Assembly: GCA_020630975.1 (NCBI GenBank)
Contig: JAHDID010000032.1
Coordinates: 30,132-66,457 of the forward strand
Source: Verrucomicrobiota bacterium
GTDB taxonomy: Bacteria > Verrucomicrobiota > Verrucomicrobiia > Verrucomicrobiales > DEV007
Length of the DNA: 36,326 nt
Reading direction: 5' to 3'
Positions 1-31,960 of the stretch are shown here, piece after piece; position 1 is the first letter of the stretch; every line of letters begins with the position of its first letter. A model generated the notes under the pieces. The model was not told where the DNA came from. It was given only the letters and a program-made list of their open reading frames with translations, and ran no database searches. The translations under genes and the position numbers were made by a program.

Positions 1-289
1 CCGCAGGGATTTAAATTAGGGCAGCCTTTCGTAGCGGAACTTGCTAAAGTTCCGACCACAAAGCCTCCCGTAGAGCTTCCTCACAAGCCACCACAGGGCA
101 GATTGGGATCTGCCTCTACTACCATTTAGGCTCGCTCAAAGCTGTAGCGGAACTCCTAAGAGTTCCGACCGCAGGGCCTCCCCACAAGCCACCACAGAGC
201 AGATTGGGATCTGCCTCTAAACCATCTCGTCCCGCTCAAAGCCGTAGCAGAACTCCCCAGAGTTCCGACCGCAAAGCCTCCCGAAAAAA
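1..289. repeat. Tandem copies of a ~100-113 bp intergenic repeat with two hairpins per unit
   Basis: Three consecutive units begin at 31, 144 and 244 (the last is partial). Each opens with GTAGCGGAACT, or GTAGCAGAACT in the third, and forms a short hairpin such as GGAACTC-CTAA-GAGTTCC. The first two continue into CACAAGCCACCACAG and a second perfect hairpin, GCAGAT-TGGG-ATCTGC. The same first hairpin recurs at 7698, 7890, 9403 and 9609. No gene was seen here. The units lie just downstream of the leftward msrA stop codon at 290, so they may also act as 3' structure for that transcript. Confidence 0.85.
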
Positions 290-940
290 TCACACAATCA
301 CCCGCAGGATATCCTGCTCGACCGCACTCGGCAGGCCATACTCCGCCACTTCCTCACGATAAGCAGCCGCTCCCTCACGCGTACCATTACCAAACCAGCC
401 ATTCAGTCGACTGGCGATCGTGGAGTCGCAAAACGCTCGTGCATCGGGAAAGCAGGCGAGCAGCGCTTTGATAAAATGGATCTGGCGACGCAGTATGTAT
501 TTCTGGTGATAGTCCTCGGCATAGGTGAACTCACCCAGTGGCTCGATATCGGTCTGGATTTTGCCCGTATCGATACCTAGAGCATCGGCAGCTTGCTCGC
601 GAGTTTCCTCTAGTATCGACTGCTGCTCGCTGTTGGCATACCAGACCGCGTAGCGATACTGCCTGCTCGGACTCTGCCGGCGCGGGTCGTGGCTGCGCCA
701 GATCATGTCGGCTATCTGGCGATAGCTGATTTTCTCGGGATCAAAGTCGATTTGCACCGCTTCGGTGTGATCACCCATCTGCGTGTACGTCGGGCTGGAT
801 AGTCTGCCGCCTGTGTAGCCAGAGCGTGTCCTCAGCACACCGTCGATATTCCCAAACTGGGAATCAGGATGCCAAAATCAGCTCAGTCCAAAGGTGGCCG
901 TCTGATAGGCGGTGTTCGCTATTTTTTGATCGTATTCCAT
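290..940 (-). CDS. msrA: Peptide-methionine (S)-S-oxide reductase, probable selenocysteine protein (UGA at codon 21)
   Basis: MsrA reduces methionine-S-sulfoxide in proteins. The segment from the GTG at 838 has the family signature (SGYTGG, then GDHTEAVQIDFDP and HDP) but lacks the N-terminal GCFW active site. Reading the same frame upstream restores it: ATG at 940-938, TATFGLS, TGA at 880-878, then FWHPDSQFGNIDGVLRTR. The TGA falls precisely where family members have the catalytic Cys. The reading frame is otherwise unbroken, and the ATG lies 2 nt after the stop codon of the upstream kinase gene, as expected in an operon. A 6-bp hairpin with a 5-nt loop follows the TGA. With Sec decoded the product is 216 residues, normal for MsrA. 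Alternatives are a nonsense mutation or a base-call error of TGC or TGT. Cysteines near the C-terminus (ACFPD, FCDS) could resolve a selenenyl-sulfide, which is an inference. Confidence 0.85.
848..864 (-). promoter_or_regulatory. Candidate bacterial SECIS hairpin downstream of the in-frame UGA
   Basis: In the msrA mRNA the UGA (880-878) is followed by 13 nt and then a perfect 6-bp stem AUUCCC/GGGAAU closing the loop AGUUU. The loop starts 20 nt after the UGA and has G as its second base. Bacterial SECIS elements are described as short hairpins immediately 3' of the UGA with a G near the start of the apical loop, so position and form fit. The stem lies inside coding sequence, as is normal in bacteria. 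SelB binding is inferred, not shown. Confidence 0.6.
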
Positions 941-942
941 CT

Positions 943-3528
943 CTAAAGCTTACGTTCGTCCACGAGCACATAGCGAAAGCCAAACATGCGATTGCTGCGT
1001 GCCTTGGGGTCGGCCTCATTTCGATAGGCGCTTTCCAGTAGTTCTCGATCGTAGGTATCATAGCCGCCACCGCGGAGTACGCCTCTTTCACCACGGGTAT
1101 CGCTTACCCATTCCCACACATTTCCCGACAGATCATAGAGTCCGCTAGCCGTCGGTGAGAATGATCCCACAGGGGCTGTCGTCTGGTAGCCGTCTCGGTA
1201 GTCTTCTATAGAAAAGTCCAGATCGCCCGTCGATAGATCGGCAAAGTTGCCAGTGCCATCGGGTGGCGGCCATTCGATTCCCCAGGGGTAGAGTGACTCT
1301 TGTGCCGCCTGGCTCCACTCGGCATCGGTGGGTAACCGGTAGGTGTGCCAGCGGCGGATCGTGCCACGCTCGCGTTCTGTCTCCGTGAGCCAACGGCAAA
1401 ATAGCTCGGCATCGCTGCGGCTGATACCGACCACTGGGTGGTCGGGTGATTGGCCGACCACTTCTGGAGGAATCGCATCGGGGCTGAGCTGTAGGTAGAA
1501 ATCATAGTCGACATAGCGTGTCTCGTGTGTGGCGAACCAGATATCCCCGACCGGAGTGAGTGGCATGCCGAGCCCATTTTTCCACGATCTACCGTAGATG
1601 GGGGAGAGGTCGGTGCGCAGTGTAGCAGAGTGCCGCTCGATACTATCTGGCTGTAGGATGCCCTGTAGGTCGACCGGTTTGTGGCCGTCTAGAGAGAGCT
1701 GCAGCTGGTAGGGGCCTAGGCGCAGTGGCACTTCAGTAGGTGTCACGCCGACCAGTCTATCGCCATCGTAGATCTCCGCTCCGATCGGCTCAGATACCAC
1801 ATCGACTGCGGCAAACCGATTGTCGATCTGGCAGTGAAATCGGTTGCCCTGAAATTCAAAAGCTGGCTTCAGGTAGGTGCGCTCGTCGAGGTATTTACCC
1901 TCGCGGTCTAGCCCAGTCATCCAGTCGCAGAATGCCCACATCAGAGCAGGGTCTGTCACCATGACGGCGGAGCTACTACTAGTTGCCGATATCGCAGTAG
2001 CCGTGGCCATAGGTAGGGTGCTCTGGTCGGTGCCGGTGGCTTGGAGAAAGTGGTCAAATATCGCTTTGTCGACTTCGGCTACCAGAGGCGAGTTGGGTAG
2101 ATTTTTCGCTCTTTGGAAAAGCAGGCCCGCACTGTTTTTCCAGGTGCTATTGGTAGCTGATGGGCGGTTGTCCTTTTCGAGAGAGGCAAAGATCTGGTGC
2201 GGCTGTTCGCCCGGTTTTAGGGTGACGGTTTCGGTTTTTTCCAGATAACCATCGAGTCGGAAGACAAAGCTATGCTCGCCGATGTCAAAGGCGCGCGCTC
2301 TCGTCGTGGTCCGGCCGATCTGGGTATCGCCCAGCCACACGATAGCTCCGGTCGGTGTGCTGAATAGCTGGACCTCGCGCGTGTTCACGGCTGGCTCAGG
2401 TTCAGGATCGATCACGGGTTCCGCGACCAGAGTGGGAGGTGCAGGCTCCGCTACGATCGGGTCCTCTACCTCTGGTGGCTCGGGATCAGCTGGAGTCGTG
2501 GGAGGATGAGTGAGATCTTCGCTAGGCGTGGCTTCGGCAGCGATGGAGTCGGGCTCGGTCTCGGTGGTCGCTACGGGCTCCTCGTCTCCTGAACGGCTCA
2601 TGTAGATCGCAGCCGCGATGGCTGCGATCGCCAGCACAGGCATCAGCCAGATCCACCATTTGGATTTTGAGGGGGCAGCAGCTGGAGCAGCCCCGTCGGG
2701 TAGCTCCCGTATCGCTCCTAGGGCGTTGGCCATCGCGCCACCAGACTCGAATCTCCGATCCGGGGTGGGCGAGCCAGCGCGGCAGATCACTTGATTTAGC
2801 GCGCGCCATTCATCCCGGTTCACAGTCGGACCGAGCTGGTGATTGGTCGGTAGCTCGGGGAATTCCATCCGGTCTTTGCCGGTATGCATCTCATATAGCA
2901 CCATGCCTAGTGCATACAGGTCGGCCGAGCTAGTGCCGGGCCCTTCTGGCGGCACATAGCCCTCGGTGCCCACATAGGTCCGCTGCCCCGAGCGCGCCAC
3001 CAGCCCGATATCGGCGAGCTGGGGCTCTCCGCTGGCGTAGATGATATTGGCCGGCTTCACATCTCGGTGGGTCAGGCCTGCCGCGTGCAGATGATCGAGC
3101 GCGCCTGCCATCTGGCGGCCCAGGGCCAGACAGTCGCCGATATCGCGCACGCGGATCAGGCGCAGCTCGGAGGCGAGAGTCTTCGGCTGGTAGGTATCGA
3201 TGGTCTCTGCATCCAGGCGCGCGCCCGACACATCGTCGGCCAGAGCCATCACATAGTAGTAATAGCTACTATCTGCAGCGCGCCCCACATGGAGGACATC
3301 GACTAGGCCTGGGTGCCCCTGAGAGACATTCTCGTAGTGCACGATCCCCTCAAACTCTCGCTCAAAGGTGCGCTCCATCTCGAAGTTGGCCCGATTCACC
3401 ACCTTCACCGCTCGGTAAGACCCGGTCACGGTCTGGGCCAGATACACATCCCCATACGATCCGCCGCCGATCCGCCTGAGGATGGTGAAATCGGGTATGC
3501 TGGGGAAGTCTGGAGAATCAGCTGAGAT
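943..3528 (-). CDS. Membrane Ser/Thr protein kinase with PEGA repeats and C-terminal FGE-sulfatase-like domain; start codon unresolved
   Basis: The kinase domain shows a glycine-rich loop (IGGGSYGDVYLA, coded around 3440-3470), the ATP lysine in RAVKVV, and the catalytic loop THRDVKPAN (about 3052-3072). DIG stands in place of DFG, followed by GTEGYVPPE. Next come a single membrane span (WWIWLMPVLAIAAIAAAIYM), a proline/glutamate-rich linker, two PEGA-type repeats (STPTGAIVWLGD; SEPIGAEIYDGD) and a C-terminal FGE-sulfatase fold (LPTDAEWSQAA, LYDLSGNVWEWVSD, GFRYVL). The kinase is presumably cytoplasmic with the rest outside. The formylglycine-forming cysteines are absent, so this end is likely a binding module. 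The first conventional start (GTG, 3447) falls inside the glycine loop. The frame is open to 3558 without ATG, GTG, TTG or CTG. The end coordinate is set at an AUC codon as a guess. It overlaps the upstream gene's stop and lies 2 nt before msrA. Confidence 0.85.
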   Translation of the reverse strand: MSADSPDFPSIPDFTILRRIGGGSYGDVYLAQTVTGSYRAVKVVNRANFEMERTFEREFEGIVHYENVSQGHPGLVDVLHVGRAADSSYYYYVMALADDVSGARLDAETIDTYQPKTLASELRLIRVRDIGDCLALGRQMAGALDHLHAAGLTHRDVKPANIIYASGEPQLADIGLVARSGQRTYVGTEGYVPPEGPGTSSADLYALGMVLYEMHTGKDRMEFPELPTNHQLGPTVNRDEWRALNQVICRAGSPTPDRRFESGGAMANALGAIRELPDGAAPAAAPSKSKWWIWLMPVLAIAAIAAAIYMSRSGDEEPVATTETEPDSIAAEATPSEDLTHPPTTPADPEPPEVEDPIVAEPAPPTLVAEPVIDPEPEPAVNTREVQLFSTPTGAIVWLGDTQIGRTTTRARAFDIGEHSFVFRLDGYLEKTETVTLKPGEQPHQIFASLEKDNRPSATNSTWKNSAGLLFQRAKNLPNSPLVAEVDKAIFDHFLQATGTDQSTLPMATATAISATSSSSAVMVTDPALMWAFCDWMTGLDREGKYLDERTYLKPAFEFQGNRFHCQIDNRFAAVDVVSEPIGAEIYDGDRLVGVTPTEVPLRLGPYQLQLSLDGHKPVDLQGILQPDSIERHSATLRTDLSPIYGRSWKNGLGMPLTPVGDIWFATHETRYVDYDFYLQLSPDAIPPEVVGQSPDHPVVGISRSDAELFCRWLTETERERGTIRRWHTYRLPTDAEWSQAAQESLYPWGIEWPPPDGTGNFADLSTGDLDFSIEDYRDGYQTTAPVGSFSPTASGLYDLSGNVWEWVSDTRGERGVLRGGGYDTYDRELLESAYRNEADPKARSNRMFGFRYVLVDERKL

Positions 3529-3536
3529 CCCCGAGT

Positions 3537-3992
3537 CTAGCGGATGAGGGGGGAGAGTTCAACTGGTGTGGTGAGGGCAATTGAGAATCCATCGATGGAG
3601 GCAAATCCTATAGGCCATATATGACTTATAGGGCCTATTAGTGGAGGCAGGGCTACAACACAATCCACGACCACTGCCACCCAAACCAATAGCCCAGTCA
3701 AAGAGACCAAGTCCGGGTGCAGGCATTTCTTTTTCCGGTGATCGGCGATCCAGATACTCTTCTCCAGTCGCTTGTAGTATTTTCGTTTATCCCTAGATGG
3801 CTTCGCCCACTGGCGGCGCTTTTCATGATAAGTGCCGAGATTTAGAGAGCCGAAGGAGACGATGGAAAGGAAGAGAAAACCGGTCCAGTGAAAGACTGTT
3901 CTAAAGAAGAGTTCGACAAATATTTGTAACACGACCTCCAGGACGAACCTGAAAACAATCTTGAAGATACCCTCTACAATATCTTCAATCAT
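3537..3992 (-). CDS. Small membrane protein of unknown function
   Basis: This 151-residue protein was not recognised. The first ~30 residues form a hydrophobic, acid-punctuated helix (MIEDIVEGIFKIVFRFVLEV). A membrane span follows at about 35-52 (WTGFLFLSIVSFGSLNL), then a strongly basic loop at 57-90 rich in K and R, and a second span at about 97-120. It sits between the histidine kinase (18 nt upstream) and the kinase-FGE gene, whose frame begins before this stop codon, so the three are likely co-transcribed. A run of six C lies just before its stop, at the point where the kinase frame becomes open (see findings). A role as membrane partner of either kinase is only a guess. Confidence 0.65.
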   Translation of the reverse strand: MIEDIVEGIFKIVFRFVLEVVLQIFVELFFRTVFHWTGFLFLSIVSFGSLNLGTYHEKRRQWAKPSRDKRKYYKRLEKSIWIADHRKKKCLHPDLVSLTGLLVWVAVVVDCVVALPPLIGPISHIWPIGFASIDGFSIALTTPVELSPLIR

Positions 3993-4010
3993 AGCTAGTC
4001 AGGTCTCACC

Positions 4011-5729
4011 CTATGCCGCCAGCTCCACAGCGCCCACCTTGCCTTTGCCAGTCAGGATGCCCTGCACAGTACTCAGCATCTGGTCGAGTGCATACGGCTT
4101 GTGCAGAAAGGTCACTCCTAGCGCCTCAGCCTGAGCTGTCATCGCTGCATCGTCGCTGTAGCCGCTGCTGATCAGGGCTTTTTGCTCGGGATTATCGGCT
4201 ATGATCGTCTCGAGCACGTCGACGCCAGAGCCATCGGGTAGACGTGCATCGGTAAAGATCAGGTCGAAGCTGTCGCAGGTGCGATACGCCTCCAGAGCTC
4301 CGGCACAGGTGCTGGCTGTGGTGACTTCGCAGCCCAGCTTGGCCAGTGCCATGGTGACAAAGGTGGTCACTGCGGGCTCGTCCTCTAGTAGTAACACCTG
4401 ATAGTGAGCGGTGCGATCGATGGTGGTCACACTTGCCTCGCTCTGCTGCACACTATCGCTGTCTGTCCGAGCGCCTGCGCCCTCGGCTAGTGGGAAGCGG
4501 ATGGAGAAAGTCGTGCCCTGACCCTCGATCGAGTCGAGATCCAGAGTGGCATCGTGCTGGTGGACGATGCCCTTCACGGTGGACAGCCCCAGTCCGGTGC
4601 CATCGTCGCCCTTGGTCGAGAAAAATGGGTCAAAGATACGCTCCTGTAGCTCCTCAGACATACCGGCGCCATTGTCGGCTACTTTCACGATGATCTGGTC
4701 GCCATCATTGGCAGTGGTAATGCGGATTTCGCCACCCTGGGGCATCGCATCGCGCGCATTCACGCACAGATTCACCAGCACCTGCTGCATTTGCCCTTGG
4801 TCGGCGAGGATGGAGCTGCGTTCGGCCTGATCTTCGATGACGAGATCGATATTCTCCCCGAGCATGCGCTGGATCATGCGGCGCAGGTCTTGGATCTCGG
4901 CACCGATGTCCAGCACCCGTTTGTCGGCGATCTGCTTTTTGGAGAAAGTCAGGAGTTGTTTGGTCAGCGAGGCAGCACTGGTCGCGGCTTTGCGGATCTC
5001 GGTGACTTCCTCGGTCCAGTCACCAGGCTCCGGCGAGCCGAGGATGGAGTCGGCATAGCCGAGGATAGGTACCAGCATATTATTAAAATCGTGAGCGATG
5101 CCGCTGGTCAGCCTGCCGATAGCCTCTAGCCGCTGATACTGCTGCACCTGCTCCTCCAGCAGGCGGCGCTCTATCTCGATCCGCTGTTTATCTAGGGCGA
5201 TGCGGATGATGGTAGCGACAGACTCGAGTCCATCGATCTCGTCGGCAGGCCACTGGCGAGGCTCGTCCGAGGTGAAGACCGCGACTAGGCTGGCATGATC
5301 GTCTAGGGCAAACATGGCTGCCGACTGCAGCCCGCAGTGGGTCAGTAGGGTGCGCTCGGCCTCGGCACTAGCCTCTAGATCGTCTACGGAGTTGATCAGG
5401 ACTTTTTGGTAGCGCCGCAGTGCCTCGGCCATCCACGGCAGATCCGCCTGACTGGGCATATTTCGAAAGTCGATAGGCATCTCGCCCTGTTGAGACGAGT
5501 AGATAGACACAGGTGTGTAGGTATCTTCGCCATCGGGAGATAGCTGGAAGACACCGCTATAGCGCAGCGAGAGCAAGCTAGACACATCGCCCAGGCCAGA
5601 GAGTAGCACCTGGTTGAAGCCATCCCAGTCACACACGAATAGATCGTTTGTCAGCTGGTTCTTCAGTGTTTCTAGCTCGACGCGCCGGACGAGAGTGTCG
5701 ATGCTGGGGTTAGAAAGTTTAGTGGTCAT
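4011..5729 (-). CDS. Hybrid sensor histidine kinase (GAF-like, HisKA, HATPase, receiver)
   Basis: This is a soluble two-component hybrid kinase of 572 residues. Residues ~20-185 look like a GAF-type sensor region. The dimerisation/phosphoacceptor helix carries His213 in GIAHDFNNML. The ATPase domain follows, with N box NLCVNARDAMP (~320-330), G1 box DNGAGM (~352-357), F box FDPFFSTKG and G2 box GTGLGLSTVKG. The C-terminal receiver has acidic residues LLLEDE (~447-451), phosphoacceptor Asp494 in IFTDARLPDG and the conserved Lys in FLHKPY. No membrane span was seen. The ATG at 5729 is the first in frame. It is divergent from the cyclase-response regulator at 5886 across a 156-bp AT-rich spacer, suggesting shared control and possibly a phosphorelay between them (inference). 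Confidence 0.93.
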   Translation of the reverse strand: MTTKLSNPSIDTLVRRVELETLKNQLTNDLFVCDWDGFNQVLLSGLGDVSSLLSLRYSGVFQLSPDGEDTYTPVSIYSSQQGEMPIDFRNMPSQADLPWMAEALRRYQKVLINSVDDLEASAEAERTLLTHCGLQSAAMFALDDHASLVAVFTSDEPRQWPADEIDGLESVATIIRIALDKQRIEIERRLLEEQVQQYQRLEAIGRLTSGIAHDFNNMLVPILGYADSILGSPEPGDWTEEVTEIRKAATSAASLTKQLLTFSKKQIADKRVLDIGAEIQDLRRMIQRMLGENIDLVIEDQAERSSILADQGQMQQVLVNLCVNARDAMPQGGEIRITTANDGDQIIVKVADNGAGMSEELQERIFDPFFSTKGDDGTGLGLSTVKGIVHQHDATLDLDSIEGQGTTFSIRFPLAEGAGARTDSDSVQQSEASVTTIDRTAHYQVLLLEDEPAVTTFVTMALAKLGCEVTTASTCAGALEAYRTCDSFDLIFTDARLPDGSGVDVLETIIADNPEQKALISSGYSDDAAMTAQAEALGVTFLHKPYALDQMLSTVQGILTGKGKVGAVELAA

Positions 5730-13857: not shown

Positions 13858-15616
13858 CCTAAAAAGAGCAATGGGCTAAGCTTGGAATTCCTTCAACTCT
13901 CTGATATACAGGCAGATGGATCGAGAAATCCAGCTTCGTGACACTCACCCAGAGGGTGAGCGTGTATCAGACACTTTAGACAGCTCAAAACGCTGGCCAT
14001 TAGACACGCCAGGAGGGCGGGTTTTCGCCGAATGGCAGGAAGATCTACCAGTCACACGAGAGGGCCAGCTGATTTTCTTTTTCCAGTTCCTACAGACAGG
14101 AGGGCGCTGGTCGGAGCTACTACGTGATTGCCCGCTAGTCTACGAGGGTAACCAAGGTAGTGGTAAGACCAATGTATTTGGCACTCTATTACTCAGTGTC
14201 CTCAGTGGGTATTATCGTTACGCACATATCAATACTGTTCGTGGCGATGGCGTAAATCCCGCTCTGCTTGGCATGAGTAAAGTCGTTAGCGAAGATACCG
14301 TGCGCCGCGCCCTAAAGCGCATCGATCCGGATAAGGGATTGGATTGTCTGGAAAGACACCTCCTCGACTCCATAGCACAGGCGCTAGTTTTGCCTTGGAT
14401 ATTGGATATCGATACGACGATAAAACCTATCTATGGGCACCAAGAAGGAGCGACAATAGGCTATAACCCACAAAAGCCTGGGCGACCGAGTCACAGCTAT
14501 CATTCTTACTTCGTAGCCAATCTTCGATTAGCACTAGGAGTCGACGTCTGCGCTGGGAATGAGTCAGCCTCTACCGAGGGACTCTCTGGGCTATGGCGTA
14601 TGCTAGACCGTCTCTCAGGAGTGCAGCAGCCTACCTTTATCCGAGGTGACTGCGGTTATGGCAGCGAGCGCTTTATGGTCGAGTGCGAGCAGCGTCGGTT
14701 GCCCTATCTGTTCAAGCTACGTCATACATCGAAAGTGAAAGCTTTAGTCAAAACCTGCATGGCACAGAGCGATGGCTGGCGAGATACCGGTGACGGCTGG
14801 CAGGCTATGGAAGCCCATCTCAAGCTCAGCGGATGGACACAGCGGCGTCGAGTTGTAGTGGTGAGAGAAGCTCCGGCTACTGCACCCAAAAAAGATAAGC
14901 CTACGAAGAGAAAGCCAAACCGCCGAGGTAGCTCTACTAAGAGTAAAAATACACCGATGCTGCCCGGTGAGGATTGGGACGCGCCATCTAAAGCCACACC
15001 CTGGTCGGGTAAAATAGCAGTGCTAGTCACCTCGCTAGATCCCCTCCGATACCCGACTGAGTGCATGCCTAGGCTCTACCGCGAGCGAGCTGATGTAGAG
15101 AATAACTACGATGAATTGAAAAACCAGTGGGGCTGGTGTGGATACACAACGCGGCAGCAAGGTGTTAGCCAGTTGGCAGCGACCTTCATCGCCATTGCTT
15201 ACAACTGGTGGAGTCTGTATGCGCGCTTCTATGACGCCGAGCACCATCGAGAGGCCGTGACGACTCGGCCCTATCTTATGTCAGGTGTAGGCCGCCAAGT
15301 CCAGAGTGGGGGCCAGAAAACAGTCAAAGTCAGTCTCACTCATGATATGAGCGCCAAGATAGTTGAGTCTGTCTCATTAATCAGCAGGCGCTTACATGAA
15401 TTGAACCTCACTGCGGAGCAATGGGACATATCTCAACGCTGGGCCTACCTTTTAACGTGTGTGCTGCGCCCTTGGCTAGGTGGGAAATGGCTATCAGGCG
15501 TGCCACCAGATCATAAGACTTACCTAATCGAATAGGTGCCACACTGCTGCGCTGCTCAGATAAGCAAAATTCGAGGCAAACCAGCTCGTAAACGAGGGGC
15601 CATTGTCGTTTTTAGG
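13858..15616 (+). mobile_element. IS1380-like insertion sequence, complete
   Basis: 1759 bp. Left end CCTAAAAAGAGCAATGGGC (13858-13876) matches the reverse complement of the right end, CCTAAAAACGACAATGGCC (15598-15616), at 15 of 19 positions, including the first eight. Both ends are flanked directly by TTGAT (13853-13857 and 15617-15621), a 5-bp target-site duplication. One transposase gene fills it. Intact ends, gene and duplication point to a fairly recent insertion. It fell between dnaE and the damaged helicase gene without cutting either. The family name comes from the transposase motifs and the CC-starting ends. Confidence 0.88.
13916..15535 (+). CDS. DDE transposase, IS1380-like
   Basis: 539 residues. 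The RNase H-like catalytic core shows the first Asp in LDIDTTIKPIYGHQEGA (Asp166), followed by the typical GYNPQKPGRPSHSYHSY. The second Asp is in IRGDCGYGSERF (Asp245). The catalytic Glu is in the signature Y-x2-R-x3-E-x6-K, seen as YRERADVENNYDELK (Glu395). N-terminal KVVSEDTVRRAL is a helix-turn-helix-like region common to the group. A basic insert (KKDKPTKRKPNRRGSSTK) lies between the second Asp and the Glu. The gene sits between terminal inverted repeats and is uninterrupted, so it is likely active. GNQGSGKT (~79-86) looks like a Walker A motif but is probably coincidental. Confidence 0.93.
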   Translation: MDREIQLRDTHPEGERVSDTLDSSKRWPLDTPGGRVFAEWQEDLPVTREGQLIFFFQFLQTGGRWSELLRDCPLVYEGNQGSGKTNVFGTLLLSVLSGYYRYAHINTVRGDGVNPALLGMSKVVSEDTVRRALKRIDPDKGLDCLERHLLDSIAQALVLPWILDIDTTIKPIYGHQEGATIGYNPQKPGRPSHSYHSYFVANLRLALGVDVCAGNESASTEGLSGLWRMLDRLSGVQQPTFIRGDCGYGSERFMVECEQRRLPYLFKLRHTSKVKALVKTCMAQSDGWRDTGDGWQAMEAHLKLSGWTQRRRVVVVREAPATAPKKDKPTKRKPNRRGSSTKSKNTPMLPGEDWDAPSKATPWSGKIAVLVTSLDPLRYPTECMPRLYRERADVENNYDELKNQWGWCGYTTRQQGVSQLAATFIAIAYNWWSLYARFYDAEHHREAVTTRPYLMSGVGRQVQSGGQKTVKVSLTHDMSAKIVESVSLISRRLHELNLTAEQWDISQRWAYLLTCVLRPWLGGKWLSGVPPDHKTYLIE

Positions 15617-18923: not shown

Positions 18924-19946
18924 TCAAGAATCTAACCAATCCGCGCTCACAGATTGCCAGTGCAACCGACGATAAGGTTGCAGCAAGGTCGGAATCTCAG
19001 CGTCGTCCATGTCGTCTAGAACCATGCAGATAGCTTTCTGTTCTGATAAACCTGCTAATAGCTTTGTCAGGACAGCGGTGTACTCTGCGCGGCACCAGCC
19101 TGATCTCAGTTGATTGCGGCTCAGACAAATCAAGATTTGTTTCGAATGATCAAGGCCACATTCAATCAATGGCACAATCCATCCGCCAATGGAGATTTGT
19201 TCGCGATCGATCCAGTAGGTCTTGTTACAGCTACGGACTTCTCTAAGGATATCGGCCACGATTGGCCAATCCTGACTCGCATACGATATAAAATAGTCCC
19301 ACCCCTCACCGGGATAGGGCGGTGGTTGATACGTTATTTCGGGTAGCGGAGGATCAAAGTGAATTTCTAGGCAAATATGGCCATCAGCCTGTGTTTCACA
19401 TGTCTGCGACACACCGATATCCGCGCACTGTGTTTTGATCTGATCCAGAAAAGTCTCGTCCGCTGGTAGCGCTAGCCGTACGGAACGGGCTCCTTGGCGA
19501 ACTGCCTCAGCGATGGAGTGGGAAATGATAACTTGTTGAGTGGTCAGCGTTGGCCTAAGTCGCTGTTTCAGACTTTGCCACACCGATGATAGGATGGCAG
19601 CGGCCATGCTGCTACCTAGCAGCACCGGGATAAGATCTGAAGCAAACGCTCCTGTTGCGGCTGCTCTAGGCGGTTGTAGCAATCGATCGACCTCATAAGA
19701 GTCGGATCCTTGGGCTGTCAGTGCCATTCGAGTTGCAGCTTTCGATCGCTGCAGGTCTCTCAACTCGGTAGGAGCAAACTCGGCCAATGTTGTTCGAAGG
19801 TGATCTTCAACTGCAGATACCGTTTGGGGATCTAGATCAATGCGGAGGCGCTTTGCGAAATTAATGCTTTCCAACTGATGATACGCCTCGGCAATTACTA
19901 AGCGTTCTAGGGCTGATTCTATCGAAGCTAAGTTAATTGACTCCAT
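18924..19946 (-). CDS. TIR-domain protein with hydrophobic segment
   Basis: 340 residues from ATG 19946 (MESINLASIESALERL), which lies 1 nt after the stop of the zinc-peptidase gene. An earlier in-frame TTG at 19988 is unlikely. The N-terminal ~100 residues are helical, and 102-122 is hydrophobic (LIPVLLGSSMAAAILSSVW), possibly a membrane segment. The region around 135-200 was not recognised. The C-terminal TIR domain (216-340) starts WDYFISYASQDWPIVADIL and carries the NAD-cleavage glutamate Glu288 in WCRAEYTAVL. TIR enzymes hydrolyse or cyclise NAD. Tight coupling to a peptidase suggests that the two work together. Target and trigger are unknown. Confidence 0.88.
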   Translation of the reverse strand: MESINLASIESALERLVIAEAYHQLESINFAKRLRIDLDPQTVSAVEDHLRTTLAEFAPTELRDLQRSKAATRMALTAQGSDSYEVDRLLQPPRAAATGAFASDLIPVLLGSSMAAAILSSVWQSLKQRLRPTLTTQQVIISHSIAEAVRQGARSVRLALPADETFLDQIKTQCADIGVSQTCETQADGHICLEIHFDPPLPEITYQPPPYPGEGWDYFISYASQDWPIVADILREVRSCNKTYWIDREQISIGGWIVPLIECGLDHSKQILICLSRNQLRSGWCRAEYTAVLTKLLAGLSEQKAICMVLDDMDDAEIPTLLQPYRRLHWQSVSADWLDS

Positions 19947-19947
19947 G

Positions 19948-20931
19948 TTAATCGGGCGTGGTTTTCTGTTCGATTTGACCAATGGCAAACTGTTTTAAGT
20001 CATCTAACGTATTGATTAGGCTAGCCGCTAGATTCTGAGCAGTCTCATGACTGGGTAATACAATCATCTCACGTCGTGCCTTTGGGGCTGGGTGAGTATC
20101 ATGCGTTACCTGGCAGCCCGAATCCAACTCTAGCATTGCGTAGGCAAAGTCGAGAATCTCGAAGAAAACGTGTGGTGCATGAAGGTAGTCGACACTGGTT
20201 TTGGCCCCGACACACTCATCGGTGGCGCTAGTCACTTTCTCCAGCATTTCTGCCGCGAACTGATCCGCTTCGAACTCTTCAGTCTGCATCCGCACGTAGT
20301 AGAGCCAATCCAGTTGCTGGTCATTCGGAAGAGGGTGGGTAATCTGCCTTGTCTCTCCAGTGTGTCCTAGCATATGATGCCCCAGTTCATGAGCCAAAAT
20401 AAAAGTATTTATTGTAACCGATAGAGTGTGTCCTACGTTGCACAGGTGTGGTTCAAGACTAGTTAGCTCGATAACAGAAGGTCGATCTATCTCTTGATCT
20501 GTGGGGCTGAGAAAGTGAGCTACCGCACGAACTAATTTTTGAGCTATCGAGGTCAACTCTTCCGGCAAAAGCTCCTCAAAAGTCAATCTCACCAAACCGT
20601 GTGAAAGGGCATTCACCACATACTCGAGATTACTGGAGTAAACGATAACCGGATCTCCCGATCCTGGACTACGGACGGCAAAAGCATTAAAATCGGATAA
20701 AAATAGGGAAACGAAAGCAGGCGCTTTTTCCTTATTCATCAGTTTTATCAGATCATTGTAGAACAAAGAAACAGTTGGCGCCTCTCCTCTGAAGATCCCG
20801 TCAAGATTGTCTGGTGGGGATTCATTACGCTCCAACCAATAGGATCTAATTGCATCCTGTACTACACTTGGTGTAGTCGGTTGCGGGTTAGTACGCGATT
20901 CTAGATGATCAATATATTCGCATGCAGTCAT
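19948..20931 (-). CDS. HExxH zinc metallopeptidase-like protein coupled to TIR gene
   Basis: 327 residues from ATG 20931. A TTG at 20988 would add 19 residues but looks less likely. The zincin motif is AHELGHHMLGH, with His181, Glu182 and His185. A plausible third ligand is Glu221 in EEFEADQFAAEML, a pattern shared with gluzincins such as the M48 family. The N-terminal half was not recognised and there is no signal peptide or membrane span, so it is probably cytoplasmic. Stop codon and next start are separated by 1 nt, implying translational coupling with the TIR protein. A proteolytic activator or effector of TIR signalling is a reasonable guess, not shown. Confidence 0.85.
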   Translation of the reverse strand: MTACEYIDHLESRTNPQPTTPSVVQDAIRSYWLERNESPPDNLDGIFRGEAPTVSLFYNDLIKLMNKEKAPAFVSLFLSDFNAFAVRSPGSGDPVIVYSSNLEYVVNALSHGLVRLTFEELLPEELTSIAQKLVRAVAHFLSPTDQEIDRPSVIELTSLEPHLCNVGHTLSVTINTFILAHELGHHMLGHTGETRQITHPLPNDQQLDWLYYVRMQTEEFEADQFAAEMLEKVTSATDECVGAKTSVDYLHAPHVFFEILDFAYAMLELDSGCQVTHDTHPAPKARREMIVLPSHETAQNLAASLINTLDDLKQFAIGQIEQKTTPD

Positions 20932-21031
20932 GCCCCTACCCGTACACACAGAAAAAGCTCTATATAAACCTAAAATACGGAATCTCAAGAGATGAAAGTT
21001 TCCCAGTAATTCAACTTATAGTTACAAGATT

Positions 21032-24000
21032 TCATTCGCGCTGATCTGATCTAACTAATACTAATCGTATGCCTAGTCGATTGTATTCAAACTCCGGCCA
21101 TGCATAATCCCTTGTTGCTGAAGCGCATGAATTTGCAGAGGTACTATATGATCCTCCTCGATTAATCCGGAAATCTCCCTTCCTTACTAATGGGTCGGTT
21201 AAATCATCTAACTGATATTGACGGTCGTCTTTATCATGGCTATCGAAACACCACTCCAAAACATTTCCATGCATATGATAAATCCCCCATGGATTCGGTT
21301 TGAAATATCCCTCTACTAGTTTATCGTCAATAAAAGCATTGCCATTAACTGCGGAAGTGTATCTCTGTCTATCCTTACCCCATGCTTCTTCATAGTTTCT
21401 CTGAAAGTGGCCGTCATCAAAATTACCATAATTCTTTAAATCCGAATCGGCGTCACCAAAACTATACTTATAACTGCTGGGTGTGCCAGCTCGACATGCG
21501 TACTCCCACTGAGCTTCAGTTGGCAAGGAGTAACTCCAGCCTGATAATAGAGTTCCCCTAACCTTCTCTCTATCGGACAGAATATTACAGAAATTCAATG
21601 CATCATACCAACTAACATTCTCCACTGGACGTTGTGCGTCTCCTTTATTTGTGCTTGGGTTATCACCTGCAATCGTCTCATAGGTTTCTTGGGATATTTC
21701 GAATCGACTAATCCAAAATCCTTGGGTTAAATTGATATGGCGTTTTGCTTGGTTTTCTTTTCCATCTCCCATTTGAAATGAACCTTTTGGGCACCATATC
21801 ATTTCGATTCCTTCTCCGTTTTCAAAATTAGAGCCTTCCTGACAGAAATCGTCAATTTTCTCTAGTAAGGAATTGGCCGCTTTCTTTTCGCCAATGTGAT
21901 CCAGCTGGTGCGCAAATAATCTAGCTCTATAAAACTGTCTATCATCGATCGAGTCTTTTCCCGAATGTATCAATAGATCAGAAATTCTTGACCGATTAGA
22001 TTTTGAGCTAACTATGAGGGCTCCTGAAAGATTTTCAGTTTGTAACAGGTGTTCCGAAACCTTGCTTCCGCCATTTCGCCACAACTGAATTGTTGATCGT
22101 TTCGGGAGGTTTAAAAAGCCCTCCCCTTTGCTCCAGACTACCTGGTTAGATTGATTAAAAGTGTACCAATTTTTAGCGATGTAATCATATAAATTGTAAT
22201 CAGAAAAAGTGTTGTGGCAAATATTCCATATTCTAGCTCTACCGTCTGAACTAACGCTAACCAACAGTTTGCGACCTGGGATGAACAAGACTCTTTTCAC
22301 TTGTCCTTCACATCCGCAAAGCGTAGCGATAAGGGAAATCACCACATTCTCTCTGTCCTTAGATAGGCCCCAGATTCTAATTTCTCCATCTTCCGATCCG
22401 CTTGCGATCATTTCTCCGTCAGATCTGAAATGTAGATCTAATACTTTACTACCATGGTTGGACTCATTGGCTGTTTTAGTAAGAGTCCGGGCGCTATTTG
22501 CTCCTAGCAGAGCGATTGAGCCATCGTCTTTTCCTATGGCTACTAGGGAGTTATCAGGGTTTAAGGCAAAGGTTGAAGCTAGTGGAATTGAGTCATCTTC
22601 CCATGCGTGATGCAATGAATCATAGTCAGCCAATATCATAGTGATATTACCATTAGAGTAAAGGTTTAAAATAAAGGATCCGTCTTGACTATATTCTATT
22701 TTTTGCAGCTCGTTCTTTACGCTCGGATAATCGCCTTCCCTATTAACTGAATGTTTTGAAGATTCTAAAGTGACTCTCTGATCAGATTTCAGTAATTCAA
22801 CTGAGCCGTTATAAGTCGATGCTGCTTTTGTTTCGCCCAAAAGGCTGTGGCTTACTAGTTCTATTTGATCATTATTTCGATTGATTACCGATTGTTTTTC
22901 AAGGTCGTAAGTGATTGTTCCCCTATCTGTGGCGATGGAAAGTACTGGCCTATAGGGGTCAAATAAGACATTATTCACCCTTTCTGCCTCTATAGGTAGA
23001 TTCGTGAGAATCTCATCTTTAGAGTTGAAATCCCAAAGATAGATAGAACCACTTTTAGAAGCGGATGCCATGTGCCTACCCGTCGGGCTTACATCGAGGA
23101 TTCTAGGATCTAGATCGGTCTTGTCGCTGATCCATACAGGTGCGTAGAAAGGGGATGATTTAATTGTTTCAACTGCTTGCTCGTATTTGCTTTTGTGGCT
23201 CCAACTTTTCCAAAGCCTAAGGTTTGGATCGGGTTTTGAGAGTTGTGGAATCCATTCTGCAATCCTGTCCTGGAAAGTTGGTTCGCTTTTCGTCTCTCTG
23301 CCCAATCCGTCGAAGCCTATGGCTTTTGCTGCATATAGAATTTTGTCAGGATATCTGTTTCCATTCTGTTCAGCTACTTCAGATTGAAGTAGCCAGCTTT
23401 GGCCCTCGTTGATATGCGCCAAGTCTCTCTGGGAGATAACTTCTTGGTTCTTTTTGACTGTGAGGGTTATTCCAATTAGAGCCAGAATCGTAATTGCGAT
23501 AAAAGTAAATAAAATTATTCTTTGTCTCTTTAGCTTCCGTGCCGTTTTCGCTATATCCCGTTGAATTAACTCATCTAGTTTTATACCGATTATCCCTGCA
23601 ATTAATTTTAGTTTCGAATGCTCAAGCAGTTCGGAATAGTCATCTAGCTCCTTCTTTATACTTTTGTAAGGTTTTGCTTGGCTCTTAAGGTGGATTTTAT
23701 ACTCTTTTGGATCTGTCCAACCTTGGGTGTCATCCGAGAGGCGAAAACTGACTGCAAGACTATCAAGACTTTCACCATCACGTCCCTTCTCTGTTAATGC
23801 TTCAGGATAATTTGTGGTGCCTTCCCCTTCTAGTAAGGCTGGATAGATACGGTTCCCTTTGCCGATTTTCCGATAATAGGCAATCTCCTGGTTTACGTAG
23901 GGCGATTCTTTAGATCTGGAAGAGCACAATACAACTAGGGTTGCACTATTATCAAGCGCTATGTTTATTCTTTCTTTTAACTTTCCACCCGCTTCTAACT

Positions 24001-24208
24001 CTTGTTGATCTATGAAGACCGGGCTGATTTTGCTAGGTATTTTTTCGTTGTACTGATTTGTAGTGTTTATCAACCTAGGCGGAATTTCGTACTCTTCAAT
24101 CTGTTTGTGAAGCCAGTTTGCCCATCGGCGACCTTTAGTTTCATTATCACCGTGTTGGTATGATATAAAGCACCAGTAGTGCTCAGGTTGTGACTTCTGT
24201 TTGCTCAT
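21032..24208 (-). CDS. TIR - transmembrane - WD40 - FGE-sulfatase-like fusion protein
   Basis: 1058 residues. The N-terminal TIR domain (~10-170) starts YWCFISYQHGD, with putative catalytic Glu108 in SPYVNQEIAYY. A basic helix and one membrane span follow (231-250, IILFTFIAITILALIGITLT). Then come WD40-type repeats (~370-720; e.g. LDHFRSDGEMIASGSEDGEI, DVSPTGRHMASASKSGSIYL). The C-terminal FGE-sulfatase/C-type-lectin fold (~800-1055) shows WCPKGSFQMGDG, PVENVSWYDALNFCN, LPTEAQWEYACRAG, HGNVLEWCFDS and GIRLVLV. One of the two formylglycine-forming cysteines is missing (GGSYSTSANSC), so it probably binds rather than oxidises. The layout suggests TIR inside and sensing outside. It is AT-rich compared with the dnaE side, and 100 nt upstream of the peptidase gene. 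Confidence 0.9.
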   Translation of the reverse strand: MSKQKSQPEHYWCFISYQHGDNETKGRRWANWLHKQIEEYEIPPRLINTTNQYNEKIPSKISPVFIDQQELEAGGKLKERINIALDNSATLVVLCSSRSKESPYVNQEIAYYRKIGKGNRIYPALLEGEGTTNYPEALTEKGRDGESLDSLAVSFRLSDDTQGWTDPKEYKIHLKSQAKPYKSIKKELDDYSELLEHSKLKLIAGIIGIKLDELIQRDIAKTARKLKRQRIILFTFIAITILALIGITLTVKKNQEVISQRDLAHINEGQSWLLQSEVAEQNGNRYPDKILYAAKAIGFDGLGRETKSEPTFQDRIAEWIPQLSKPDPNLRLWKSWSHKSKYEQAVETIKSSPFYAPVWISDKTDLDPRILDVSPTGRHMASASKSGSIYLWDFNSKDEILTNLPIEAERVNNVLFDPYRPVLSIATDRGTITYDLEKQSVINRNNDQIELVSHSLLGETKAASTYNGSVELLKSDQRVTLESSKHSVNREGDYPSVKNELQKIEYSQDGSFILNLYSNGNITMILADYDSLHHAWEDDSIPLASTFALNPDNSLVAIGKDDGSIALLGANSARTLTKTANESNHGSKVLDLHFRSDGEMIASGSEDGEIRIWGLSKDRENVVISLIATLCGCEGQVKRVLFIPGRKLLVSVSSDGRARIWNICHNTFSDYNLYDYIAKNWYTFNQSNQVVWSKGEGFLNLPKRSTIQLWRNGGSKVSEHLLQTENLSGALIVSSKSNRSRISDLLIHSGKDSIDDRQFYRARLFAHQLDHIGEKKAANSLLEKIDDFCQEGSNFENGEGIEMIWCPKGSFQMGDGKENQAKRHINLTQGFWISRFEISQETYETIAGDNPSTNKGDAQRPVENVSWYDALNFCNILSDREKVRGTLLSGWSYSLPTEAQWEYACRAGTPSSYKYSFGDADSDLKNYGNFDDGHFQRNYEEAWGKDRQRYTSAVNGNAFIDDKLVEGYFKPNPWGIYHMHGNVLEWCFDSHDKDDRQYQLDDLTDPLVRKGDFRINRGGSYSTSANSCASATRDYAWPEFEYNRLGIRLVLVRSDQRE

Positions 24209-24460
24209 ATTCTTGCTACTACTAAGATCGTTACAGGAATTTTTTTTGGATTATTGATCCTGTTAGTTTTTCTTAAGAGGTATCCGGTATTTATTGACTA
24301 GTTTTGGTGTGAGGTGGGGCTTTGATCAACAATTGTATCGACATTAGGAAGTCTGTATCAATTGCTTGTCTTTATGAGTTCTGGAGCATAGGCCAAGTGG
24401 TTGCTCTAAAGCAGTAAAAAATATTGAAAAGTAAATTAAGGGTCCTAGTATTAGAATTTT
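24209..24460. other. Spacer between two TIR genes
   Basis: 252 bp, AT-rich, between the tandem-TIR gene and the TIR-WD40-FGE gene, both leftward. It is long enough for a separate promoter. No hairpin terminator, repeat or short gene stood out. Confidence 0.5.
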
Positions 24461-25321
24461 TTAAGTTATAGAACCGGCTAATTCCTCAATAAGTTTCTGT
24501 TCATCCGACGATGAATAGAATTGTCTTTCGGTTAATTTTCTATATGTTTGATCGTTTGAATCGAGATCTCTCACCATTTGGCTGACACTTTCTTGTTCCC
24601 TTTGAAAACCCTCTGGAAATATTGTATAAATATTGATTCCCTGTGCTTCAGCGAGCATGATTTCAGTTTTAAGTATTTTTGAGTTGGTAATTTCACTGTT
24701 CAGTACTACTACATGAGCTGCAGCGTTCATCATTGCCTTGGCTTGAGCAGTCCGCCAATTTTGACCCAATTTAAGGTTCTTAGTCGCTACCCAAGATGAC
24801 ATGCTAGACCTTTCTATGTTGTTAGCTAGCGATGTGGCAAAATCGGCATTTTCCGACAAATAGGAAATATAAACCAAATGTGGTTCTTCGATTTCGTGTG
24901 AAGGTGTTGATATCTCCTCGATGATTCGGTTTAATTTGTCTTCCCGGCTGGTTTTTAACCCAAAAAGATTATCTGTGTGCATATGAATCCCAAATATGTC
25001 AGAAATCCTATTGGTTTCCTCGTATTTATTCAATTCTTCATAACATTCGTCCACTAAGATAGGAATGATTTTTCTGTTGTATGCCTGTGCTGTGAATGCC
25101 TCCATTCTACAGAATTGGCTTGCAGCGTAGTCTTTCGATAGAATCAGGATACAGTAATCTGTTTTTTTGATTTCATCAAGTAGCTCCCTACGCCAATATT
25201 TACCAGGAGTGAATGCTTCTACCCACGGGGTAATTTTGTTTCTCTTAAGATGCAACGAAAGTTCGGTTACGAATTTCTTTTGTTTGTTCCTAAACGAAAT
25301 TAGTACTGACGGTTTGGTCAT
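24461..25321 (-). CDS. Tandem TIR-domain protein
   Basis: 286 residues consisting almost wholly of two TIR domains. The first (~4-130) starts SVLISFRNKQKKFVTELSLH and carries Glu74 in QFCRMEAFTAQA, the position of the NADase glutamate. The second (~147-286) starts HLVYISYLSENADFATSLA and has Glu220 in LKTEIMLAEAQ. There is no signal peptide or membrane span. Both domains keep a glutamate, so both may be active, or one may serve assembly. The gene heads the leftward TIR cluster and is divergent from the cell-wall hydrolase gene across 305 bp. The ATG at 25321 fits the domain start. Confidence 0.88.
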   Translation of the reverse strand: MTKPSVLISFRNKQKKFVTELSLHLKRNKITPWVEAFTPGKYWRRELLDEIKKTDYCILILSKDYAASQFCRMEAFTAQAYNRKIIPILVDECYEELNKYEETNRISDIFGIHMHTDNLFGLKTSREDKLNRIIEEISTPSHEIEEPHLVYISYLSENADFATSLANNIERSSMSSWVATKNLKLGQNWRTAQAKAMMNAAAHVVVLNSEITNSKILKTEIMLAEAQGINIYTIFPEGFQREQESVSQMVRDLDSNDQTYRKLTERQFYSSSDEQKLIEELAGSIT

Positions 25322-29053: not shown

Positions 29054-31789
29054 ATGAGCGATTCACAGAACGATCCAAACCGCGAGCCCGCCCATATTCT
29101 CTGGGTGGAGCTGACAACCCGCATCTCCCGTCAATCTCTGCATGCTCGATCGGGCCAAGAGGAGGCTGCATCGAATAGTATCCATAAAGTTTTTACCACG
29201 GCTAGAGATCTCATGGTGGAACACCATAAGGCTAAAGAATTTTGCAGGATATCCGAGGAGATGTTGAACCAGGCGATGCGACCCTACACATCTCGCTGGC
29301 ATGGATGGATGGATGGTGAGCATCGTTTCGTCAGTGCCTTGGTTCGGAAAAAATTTCGACAGGAACTAAAAGGCTTTTCTGAGGCAATTGACCCCTATGT
29401 TCATCAACTCGCAAAACTAAGCGGTAATCGAGTAGTGAACCGGGAGACTTCCAACAACCTTGCGATAGACAGATTTTTCGCTAATTTACCTGTCACTGAG
29501 CCCTTGGTGGATGGTTCGCCGAACTACCGCGAGATGATTGAAAAAGAGCGGGGGGATATTCGGGCTAGGCGTCGTGACCAGAACAGGGGTGAAAGATTGT
29601 CGAATCTAACGGGTATCGCACTGTCCGGTGGTGGGATCCGGTCGGCTACATTTTGTCAAGGTATCGTGACAGAATTGGCAAAAAGGGGGATATTGGATCG
29701 AACTGACTACCTCTCAACCGTCTCAGGGGGTGGGTATTTCGGGGCTTTCATTACTTCAGCACTGACTTCCATAAAAAAACGAAGTGGGAGTCAATGGAAC
29801 TCTAGGGAAGCAACTAAGGAGATTTTTGGTGAAGTTGAATCTTCATCTGATACGCTTGCGCTACGCCACCTTCGTAATAATAGTCAATACCTAATAAGTA
29901 AGGGCTTTTGGGGATTTCTTTTGATAAAAGGAATGATGTTATTCGGTATTATTCTTAATTTACTAACATTCGTTTGTATTGGGGTTTCTTTAGCGATTGT
30001 TGCCTGGGTTAGTCACCTAGGGATCAGTTGCATATTAGAGCTTGCTGAGTCGTCAAAAGAACAGGTGAGAATCGGTGGTTTAGTTCCATGGATGGCAGGT
30101 GCTTTAGGTATTTGGTGCGTCGTATTATTGCCGATCACACAAAGTTATTGTCGGGGTTCAGCACCGGCTACAGAGTGTGGTGATGGTATCAGTTCATCCT
30201 CAGCCACGCAGCGTTCTAAGGGGGGGGTAAGGAAGCGCCGACTTCTATCCCTTGTTGAAGGAGGGGCGATTATTCTGGGTGTAATTGGAATACTTTTAAC
30301 GCTTATCTATTATTTACCGAATCTGGTGGAGGGCTATGATAACTGCTTGGATTCATTGGGGCGATGGACTTGGGAGCAGGCTAGGTGGTTTGTTGGAGCG
30401 GGGGCGTGCCTAATTGCAGTTGCCTCAGCAATTGGGGCTGTTTTTTCTGGTGGAAGGAAAAGAATTTTTAAAGCATTTTATTCCCTTTTCGGATTGATTG
30501 GAATTCTTGCCTCAATCTGGGTATTCTTCACTACCTGTAGCCTTTTATATAATGGCGAAGTTAGTGTATTGTCGGTTTTTCTCGCTGTGGTCGGTTTTTG
30601 TCTGTGGGGTTACTTTTGTGTGAATATCAACTACACATCTCCGCATCGATTTTACCGAAACCGGCTTTGTGATTGTTTCCTTGTTCAGGCCGATATTAAA
30701 GAAAGAAAGCATTGGAGTATTTTTAGGAAGATGATGCCTAACTTTAGGAATGGAAAGGGCGTTGCTAACTTTTATTCCACCTCACAATTGAGTTTTCAGG
30801 ATATTGATCCAATTGCTTCGCCGGTTCATCTTGTTAACTGTGCCGTAAATTTGCCATACGAAAGAAACCCAGATCTGAGGGGTCGGAAGTCTGACTTCTT
30901 TGTTTTTTCTAAGCGTTATTCAGGAAGTTTGGCTAGTGGAATTCTGGCTACCAGTATGTTCACTCAAAAGGATCCGCATTTAGATTTGGGGACTGCAGTC
31001 GCAATAAGCGGGGCTGCTGCGAGCAGCCAGATGGGGCATAAGACTCCCAAAAGATTACAGTCTTTTTTGACTGTACTTAATATTAGGCTTGGTTATTGGA
31101 TTCCTAATCCTGGTAACCTCGTTAAGCGAATTCATCCCCTAAGTTGGGTATCTAAGCTTAAGTATCTAAGATTTTTCAAGCCAGGGCCGTGGCATCTGAT
31201 CAAAGAGATGACTAACTGGTTTACGGATACTCGTGGTACATACCTCAATGTTTCCGATGGTGGTCATATTGAAAATCTAGGAATCTATGAGCTCTTGCGC
31301 CGTAGATGTCGATTTATAATAGCTGTTGAAGGTGGGCGAGACTCAGATTCAACTTTCGCTGAGATTCGGCGTCTGCAACGTTATGCTGAGGTGGATTTGG
31401 GATACGAAATTGAGATTGATTTGAGTGATATTTCTCCCGGCGAAACAGGCTATAGCAAACATCATTTTACTTTGGGGACTATAAAATACTCTGAAACAGA
31501 GACTGGTTTTTTACTGTTGTTTAGATTGACCATGACAGGAGATGAGAAAGATCATGTGGCAGATTATAAGAGGAGGTATGCCAATTTTCCTCATCAAAGT
31601 ACTGCCGATCAAGTTTTTGATGAAACTCAGTATGAGGCTTACCGTTCTTTGGGCGAGACTGCTGCAACCGGGCTTCTGGAACAGGTGCAAATGCAAAATT
31701 TGGAGGATATAGAGCCGTTTAGGTTATTTCAAGAGCTAGCCAAGATCGGGCTTCCTGATAACCATTGGTTGTTTGAGAGAGTGGGATGA
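29054..31789 (+). CDS. Patatin-like phospholipase with multi-pass membrane insert
   Basis: 911 residues. The N-terminal ~185 residues are helical and soluble. The patatin core begins with GIALSGGGIRSATF, holding the oxyanion motif GGGIR at ~192-196. The catalytic Ser224 is in TVSGGGYFG and the catalytic Asp735 in NVSDGGHIENLG. Between Ser and Asp, at about 285-525, is an insert of five to seven hydrophobic helices (e.g. LLIKGMMLFGIILNLLTFVC, AFYSLFGLIGILASIWVFF), so the enzyme is embedded in the membrane whose lipids it probably cleaves. Patatin effectors are used in CBASS immunity (CapV) to destroy membranes. Here it is 171 bp upstream of the TIR-SLOG gene. A G8 tract (30220-30227) lies within the insert. 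ATG 29054 is taken as the start. Confidence 0.88.
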   Translation: MSDSQNDPNREPAHILWVELTTRISRQSLHARSGQEEAASNSIHKVFTTARDLMVEHHKAKEFCRISEEMLNQAMRPYTSRWHGWMDGEHRFVSALVRKKFRQELKGFSEAIDPYVHQLAKLSGNRVVNRETSNNLAIDRFFANLPVTEPLVDGSPNYREMIEKERGDIRARRRDQNRGERLSNLTGIALSGGGIRSATFCQGIVTELAKRGILDRTDYLSTVSGGGYFGAFITSALTSIKKRSGSQWNSREATKEIFGEVESSSDTLALRHLRNNSQYLISKGFWGFLLIKGMMLFGIILNLLTFVCIGVSLAIVAWVSHLGISCILELAESSKEQVRIGGLVPWMAGALGIWCVVLLPITQSYCRGSAPATECGDGISSSSATQRSKGGVRKRRLLSLVEGGAIILGVIGILLTLIYYLPNLVEGYDNCLDSLGRWTWEQARWFVGAGACLIAVASAIGAVFSGGRKRIFKAFYSLFGLIGILASIWVFFTTCSLLYNGEVSVLSVFLAVVGFCLWGYFCVNINYTSPHRFYRNRLCDCFLVQADIKERKHWSIFRKMMPNFRNGKGVANFYSTSQLSFQDIDPIASPVHLVNCAVNLPYERNPDLRGRKSDFFVFSKRYSGSLASGILATSMFTQKDPHLDLGTAVAISGAAASSQMGHKTPKRLQSFLTVLNIRLGYWIPNPGNLVKRIHPLSWVSKLKYLRFFKPGPWHLIKEMTNWFTDTRGTYLNVSDGGHIENLGIYELLRRRCRFIIAVEGGRDSDSTFAEIRRLQRYAEVDLGYEIEIDLSDISPGETGYSKHHFTLGTIKYSETETGFLLLFRLTMTGDEKDHVADYKRRYANFPHQSTADQVFDETQYEAYRSLGETAATGLLEQVQMQNLEDIEPFRLFQELAKIGLPDNHWLFERVG
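30220..30227 (+). repeat. G8 homopolymer inside the phospholipase gene
   Basis: Eight G in the codons for KGGVRKRR, in a cytoplasmic-looking basic loop of the membrane insert. Slippage would truncate the protein before the catalytic Asp. Confidence 0.88.
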
Positions 31790-31960
31790 TTTTTGTTTTT
31801 TATTTGTCTAGTCTTATGGTTGTGTGAGTAGGTTTATTGTAATGAGTCTTGGAAGTAAGATTTTTAATTGAATTAGTTGTGTGCTATCGGGGTTCAAAGT
31901 GGATGCTAAGTTTGAAAGCATAATTAGTGTGGCTTAGGCTGCAGTTGATCTATAATTAGA

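Follow-up and report, generated by a model that had tools for sequence, protein, structure and literature searches.

A probable selenocysteine-containing methionine sulfoxide reductase A of the Clostridium oremlandii type in Verrucomicrobiales

The closest described counterpart of the protein considered here is the peptide methionine-S-sulfoxide reductase (MsrA) of Clostridium oremlandii (CoMsrA), an organism also named Alkaliphilus oremlandii. Passages of PMC4479559 describe CoMsrA as a natural selenoenzyme that has no Cys residue at all, is 20-fold more active with selenocysteine (Sec) than with Cys, and has glutaredoxin, not thioredoxin, as its reductant. A passage of PMC4333827 states that the activity of CoMsrA requires its helical domain. 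In bacteria more widely, a listing within PMC13188914 gives MsrA as a selenoprotein of certain species, with the motif GUFWG/H, and a section of PMC2398784 reports Sec-MsrA from marine metagenomes. Sec-MsrA itself is an established bacterial selenoprotein, and the statement in a preliminary description of the present locus that some bacterial MsrAs carry Sec at the catalytic position agrees with the PMC13188914 listing and with the passages on CoMsrA in PMC4479559.

The DNA studied is a stretch of 36,326 nt, referred to as the window (GCA_020630975.1, contig JAHDID010000032.1, positions 30,132-66,457), from a member of Verrucomicrobiales DEV007. The genome that carries it comprises 7.1 Mb in 158 contigs and is 95.8% complete. 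The preliminary description had reported a minus-strand frame from 940 to 290 with a single interruption, a TGA at the position of the MsrA catalytic Cys, and an ATG located 2 nt past the preceding stop. Both observations hold. Read on the minus strand, positions 940-287 give 216 codons followed by a terminal TGA (292-290), and codon 21 (880-878) is the only internal TGA; the upstream ORF, 3447-943, terminates in a TAG (945-943), and the ATG at 940 follows it by 2 nt. Translational coupling of msrA to this ORF is possible. MsrA-like sequence had also been noted on both sides of the TGA, and the Pfam PMSR match indeed crosses it, scoring 129.7 bits over residues 14-153 (cut-off 23.7), while the NCBIfam model TIGR00401 (msrA) scores 116.5 bits against a cut-off of 108.1. 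In a phmmer alignment to the CoMsrA structure chain, codon 21 pairs with residue 16, which is catalytic in that enzyme. A scan for promoters and terminators in window positions 1-4100 gave counts near chance. The features of the locus are collected in Table 1.

Table 1. Features of the putative Sec-msrA locus, in window coordinates.
Feature	Position	Strand	Remarks
msrA gene, predicted selenoprotein	290..940	-	216 residues; predicted Sec is residue 21
UGA at the catalytic position, predicted Sec codon	878..880	-	TGA also in 17/17 readable family relatives and in paralogue L104
Catalytic MsrA (PMSR) domain	482..901	-	residues 14-153, Pfam match
C-terminal helical domain, C. oremlandii MsrA type	293..481	-	residues 154-216; phmmer, model helices, fold match over about 205 columns
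Bacterial SECIS-like hairpin AUUCCC-AGUUU-GGGAAU	848..864	-	starts 13 nt after the UGA
Upstream ORF with kinase, PEGA and FGE-sulfatase domains	943..3447	-	stops 2 nt before the msrA ATG

Other parts of the window were inspected as well. Downstream of msrA, at positions 1-290, units of roughly 100 nt are repeated imperfectly in tandem. A 41-nt block occurs in them three times, with two of its copies 76% and 85% like the third, the reference; the repeats include the near-palindrome GGAACTCCTAAGAGTTCC and are possibly a dispersed intergenic repeat. The large ORFs at 18924-25321 and 29054-34258 resemble, by eye, TIR-domain, FGE-sulfatase/WD-repeat and patatin-like proteins, and these two regions are possibly a conflict or defence region. 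An ORF at 13916-15535 looks transposase-like by eye.

Relatives of the gene were searched for in 141 genomes of the order, the window genome included, and in 74 genomes of the taxonomic family. Among the matches listed, the TGA-msrA family is present in 13 of the 141 order genomes, that of the window being one of them. Within the taxonomic family it is carried by 16 of the 74 genomes, namely ten already in the order set, G132 and five new ones. An alignment with MsrA homologues had been suggested as a check of the original reading; the homologues align at the catalytic position, and TGA occupies the same codon in the window gene and in all 17 distinct family relatives that are readable at the active site, whose proteins are 41-54% identical to that of the window. 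The same-codon TGA is also found in a diverged paralogue (L104, contig C28, 194.4 bits) that genome G098 carries beside its main copy. In the relatives read, the active-site TGA is the sole in-frame TGA; the second TGA listed for G109 is, by its coordinates, the terminal stop. Many columns at and around this codon are invariant in the family (T14, T16, F17, G18, residue 21, F22, W23, P25, D26, S27, F29 and G30). The active-site motif is SUFWH in the window protein, GUFWH in its nearest relative (L102) and GUFWG in the other 16.

In these counts, L054 was left aside because it shares its contig and its protein with L033, a locus from a genome of the same genus; L037/L103 of G132 was not read since a contig edge cuts the gene before the active site, and the paralogue L104 was read for TGA and omitted from the hairpin counts. 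Three loci flagged for a TGA (L043, L063 and L083) were rejected as UGA-MsrAs, as their active site carries an ordinary Cys, and a phylum match in G247 (one TGA flagged, 128 bits) stands outside the counts. No Cys version of the two-domain family was seen among the matches listed in the order and family surveys, where the next matches below the family were mostly ordinary MsrAs that cover the core only to about residue 150. A survey of the phylum covered 387 sampled genomes, of which at least two, that of the window and G091, exceed 300 bits against the family profile. This is a lower bound, as part of the candidates was scored in most genomes; the other matches reached 142.3 bits or less among the candidates scored. 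A contig search with the window protein returned three loci, one of which belongs to the family.

The genome was searched for selA, selB, selD and tRNA-Sec, the check to which the preliminary description had tied its reading, and all four are present. The tRNA-Sec scores 58.6 bits (cut-off 47) and is called by ARAGORN as tRNA-SeC with anticodon tca; its RNA folding is uninformative taken alone (z -0.75). The matches to selA (522.4 bits), selB (272.6 bits, or 296.5 when the C-terminal match is added, in a 667-residue ORF) and selD (301.1 bits) exceed their curated cut-offs, and the bacterial Sec-decoding trait, consisting of tRNA-Sec, SelA, SelB and SelD, is complete in this genome. The selD match makes up the C-terminal portion of an ORF of 754 residues (L018, contig C77), the N-terminal part of which resembles, by eye, a pyridine-nucleotide-disulfide oxidoreductase. 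Sec seems to be used elsewhere in the genome too, because a second UGA gene, encoding a VPGUxxT type 2 selenoprotein, is present (L087, contig C93, 14143-14997; 358 bits, cut-off 275). The genome also encodes a Cys-type MsrA (contig C39, 209.7 bits) and two members of the glutaredoxin family, all three free of internal stops.

Across the order, selA was found in 39 of the 141 genomes, among them G132 with its truncated msrA gene and all 13 TGA-msrA genomes. Because the genomes are related, the P values overstate the strength of this co-occurrence, which amounts to 13/13 TGA-msrA genomes (the window's included) versus 26/128 others in the order (Fisher P ~1e-8) and, in the taxonomic family, to a selA match in 50 of the 74 genomes, all 16 msrA genomes included (P ~7e-4, or 0.003 counting above-cut-off matches alone, the selA of G512 being a fragment below the cut-off). 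Many genomes have selA and no TGA-msrA, as is expected if they contain other selenoproteins.

These results bear on the possibility that the gene is a pseudogene, in which a nonsense mutation or a sequencing error has made the catalytic Cys codon a TGA and the remainder is decaying. A single base change from TGC or TGT would suffice for this, and the intact Cys-type MsrA on contig C39 also speaks for it. However, in other genomes the same codon is TGA in 17/17 readable relatives, 41-54% identical to the window protein (19 sequences with the paralogue and the window gene), something that an isolated nonsense mutation or a misread base does not explain. The 216 codons contain no other stop or frameshift, the alignment shows conservation on either side of the TGA, and the Sec machinery is present in the genome, all of which argue against decay, and we consider both a pseudogene and a sequencing error very unlikely.

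Slightly less credible still is translation from the internal GTG at 838, giving a 182-residue protein with another function. This ORF is open and is the one that a mechanical ORF listing returns, but its PMSR match falls by 27 bits, to 102.7, and it has no catalytic residue, just as the preliminary description had argued that a start at this GTG would leave no active site. Residues 14-30, which are encoded upstream of 838, hold many of the invariant family columns. Least probable of all, and by a wide step, is an altered genetic code in which UGA is a general sense codon and not Sec: it would account for one frame being open across a TGA, but TGA terminates 5 of the 19 main window ORFs, msrA included, reading the terminal TGA as sense would add 30 residues with one further TGA, the relatives end near the msrA terminal TGA and those read have an internal TGA at the active site alone, and the genome has a tRNA-Sec whose anticodon is tca.

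The 6-bp hairpin with an AGUUU loop noted earlier, 13 nt past the UGA, was found again at 864-848; its outer loop A-U can pair, which leaves a GUU loop. A section of PMC13188914 gives as criteria for bacterial SECIS elements a loop of 3-9 nt, a stem of 4-16 bp, a G in the first two loop positions, a distance of 16-37 nt from the UGA and an MFE of at most -7.5. The window hairpin, with 6-7 bp, an AGUUU or GUU loop, a spacing of 19-20 nt and -7.8 kcal/mol, falls within these limits. A SECIS prediction had been suggested for this region, and a custom script that applies the limits from that section placed all 18 sequences, the window and 17 relatives, inside them (stems of 4-9 bp, spacing of 19-20 nt, best 30-nt MFE from -7.8 to -15.0). 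The folding energy of the window hairpin is unexceptional (shuffle z from -1.84 to +0.36 in four folding windows); the case for Sec rests on comparison with the relatives and on the Sec machinery. Rfam gave no match in window positions 1-4000.

One register is common to nine of the 18 sequences, in which CCC or CTC precedes the loop. In this set, whose choice after viewing the sequences weakens the test, 94.4% of cells are paired, four cells are changed on both sides and the covariation score is 0.247, and for each of these values 2 of the 500 shuffles did as well. Both partners have changed at two of the pairs, from C-G to U-A at one and from A-U to G-C at the other; a compensatory A-U to G-C change distinguishes the window from L102. 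The numbers of doubly changed pairs (114/500 shuffles) and of further pair types (500/500) were not unusual, so that three of the five covariation measures are supportive, and slid registers were clearly worse. With a fixed register, 13 sequences showed no excess covariation (75.8% paired, 278/500 shuffles as high), likely because the pairing of the GAG-type sequences, whose stem is mostly shorter, is shifted by one base. RNAalifold prefers another, weak consensus fold for these 13 sequences.

Codon-preserving controls were also used. The summed stem of the 13 sequences was 81 bp versus 49 (sd 4.8). This excess comes from the six CAG/CGG-type sequences (P 0.001-0.023 each); synonymous-codon controls for the other seven, all of the GAG type, often produced stems just as long (P 0.29-0.56). 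The corresponding energy test on the 13 sequences gave a mean z of -1.27 for the 30-nt hairpin stretch and -0.92 for 45 nt, and is weak alone because another position of the gene reached -1.22. Among the first 13 sequences, the first letter of this codon, C in CAG/CGG versus G in GAG, associates with the choice of TTT or TTC for Phe (P 0.005); L098, one of the five later sequences, has CAG with TTC and breaks the CAG-with-TTT rule. On these comparative grounds the predicted hairpin is well supported for the window-type sequences, which are half of the family, and plausible for the remaining half. The sequence set offers a natural test of the mutual constraint between a coding-region SECIS and the protein encoded by it.

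We conclude, with a probability of about 96%, that the gene encodes a Sec-containing MsrA of the C. oremlandii type, with UGA decoded as Sec by means of the downstream hairpin. The original proposal that UGA is read as Sec in this MsrA is thus supported by the Sec machinery, by the TGA in 17/17 relatives and by the SECIS criteria in the cited section of PMC13188914. When the ribosome reaches the UGA at codon 21, SelB with Sec-tRNA-Sec would bind the hairpin at 864-848, and Sec would be inserted in place of termination. Sec21 would then attack the sulfur of methionine-S-sulfoxide, freeing methionine and forming a selenenic acid, which, by analogy with CoMsrA, may be reduced by glutaredoxin.

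What is new here is the lineage, as Sec-MsrA in Verrucomicrobiales is without report in the literature searched. A search combining selenoprotein or Sec terms with Verrucomicrobia returned no report of a verrucomicrobial Sec-MsrA in the retrieved portions of the matches listed. By term counts, words beginning with Verrucomicrobi do not occur in the main texts of PMC13188914, PMC12013277, PMC2398784 and PMC9312934. In the literature on selenoproteins, MsrA and Verrucomicrobia, the pertinent passages of PMC3281104 concern SELO, and the retrieved portions of PMC4807772, which deals with planctomycete genomes with selenoproteins and holds the word Verrucomicrobia, contain no mention of MsrA. Our survey adds a Verrucomicrobiales clade of predicted Sec-MsrAs that is known here in the Sec form alone, with TGA in all 19 readable sequences. 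Standard gene reading would turn such a gene into a truncated MsrA from which the active site is missing.

The best solved relatives of the window protein are the CoMsrA chains (PDB 4lwj, 4lwk, 4lwl, 4lwm and 4u66), with phmmer aligning residues 11-214 to CoMsrA 6-204. An AlphaFold2 model, built from a 13-row alignment with Sec entered as Cys, has a pLDDT of 83 (about 62 around residues 21-30) and a pTM of 0.80, and predicts helices from residue 151 on. Compared with 4lwj it gives TM-scores of 0.84/0.89 at 35% identity. The C-terminal helical domain, absent from other known MsrA structures, is thus shared by CoMsrA and the window protein. Some animal MsrAs perhaps have a CoMsrA-like architecture as well. 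The VPGUxxT type 2 selenoproteins (NF041383) are related in another way: model positions 137-222 match residues 4-100 of the window MsrA, and in L087 the UGA lies in VPGU, whereas the C-terminal MsrA-like part has no UGA and keeps a CFW motif.

Several features set the new proteins apart from CoMsrA. The window lineage is Verrucomicrobiales and not clostridial, and, unlike CoMsrA, which is Cys-free according to passages of PMC4479559, the window protein has C163 and C171, while 14 of the 18 family sequences have a Cys43 in a GYCGG motif that is absent from the window protein. Because of these residues, the resolving step may differ from that of CoMsrA. One could go further and propose that the Sec-MsrAs of this clade have left the 1-Cys mechanism of CoMsrA, with Cys43 or, in the window protein, C163/C171 resolving the selenenic acid internally and making the enzyme reducible by thioredoxin, and that two register-shifted SECIS forms, CCC-AGUUU-GGG and CCG-AGUU-CGG, are tied to a Gln/Arg versus a Glu codon in the stem; we regard this combined proposal as speculative and rather unlikely to hold as a whole. 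As in CoMsrA, whose Sec is described in passages of PMC4479559, the window gene has a predicted Sec codon at the catalytic position, and its product aligns with CoMsrA over nearly the full length, the C-terminal helical domain included.
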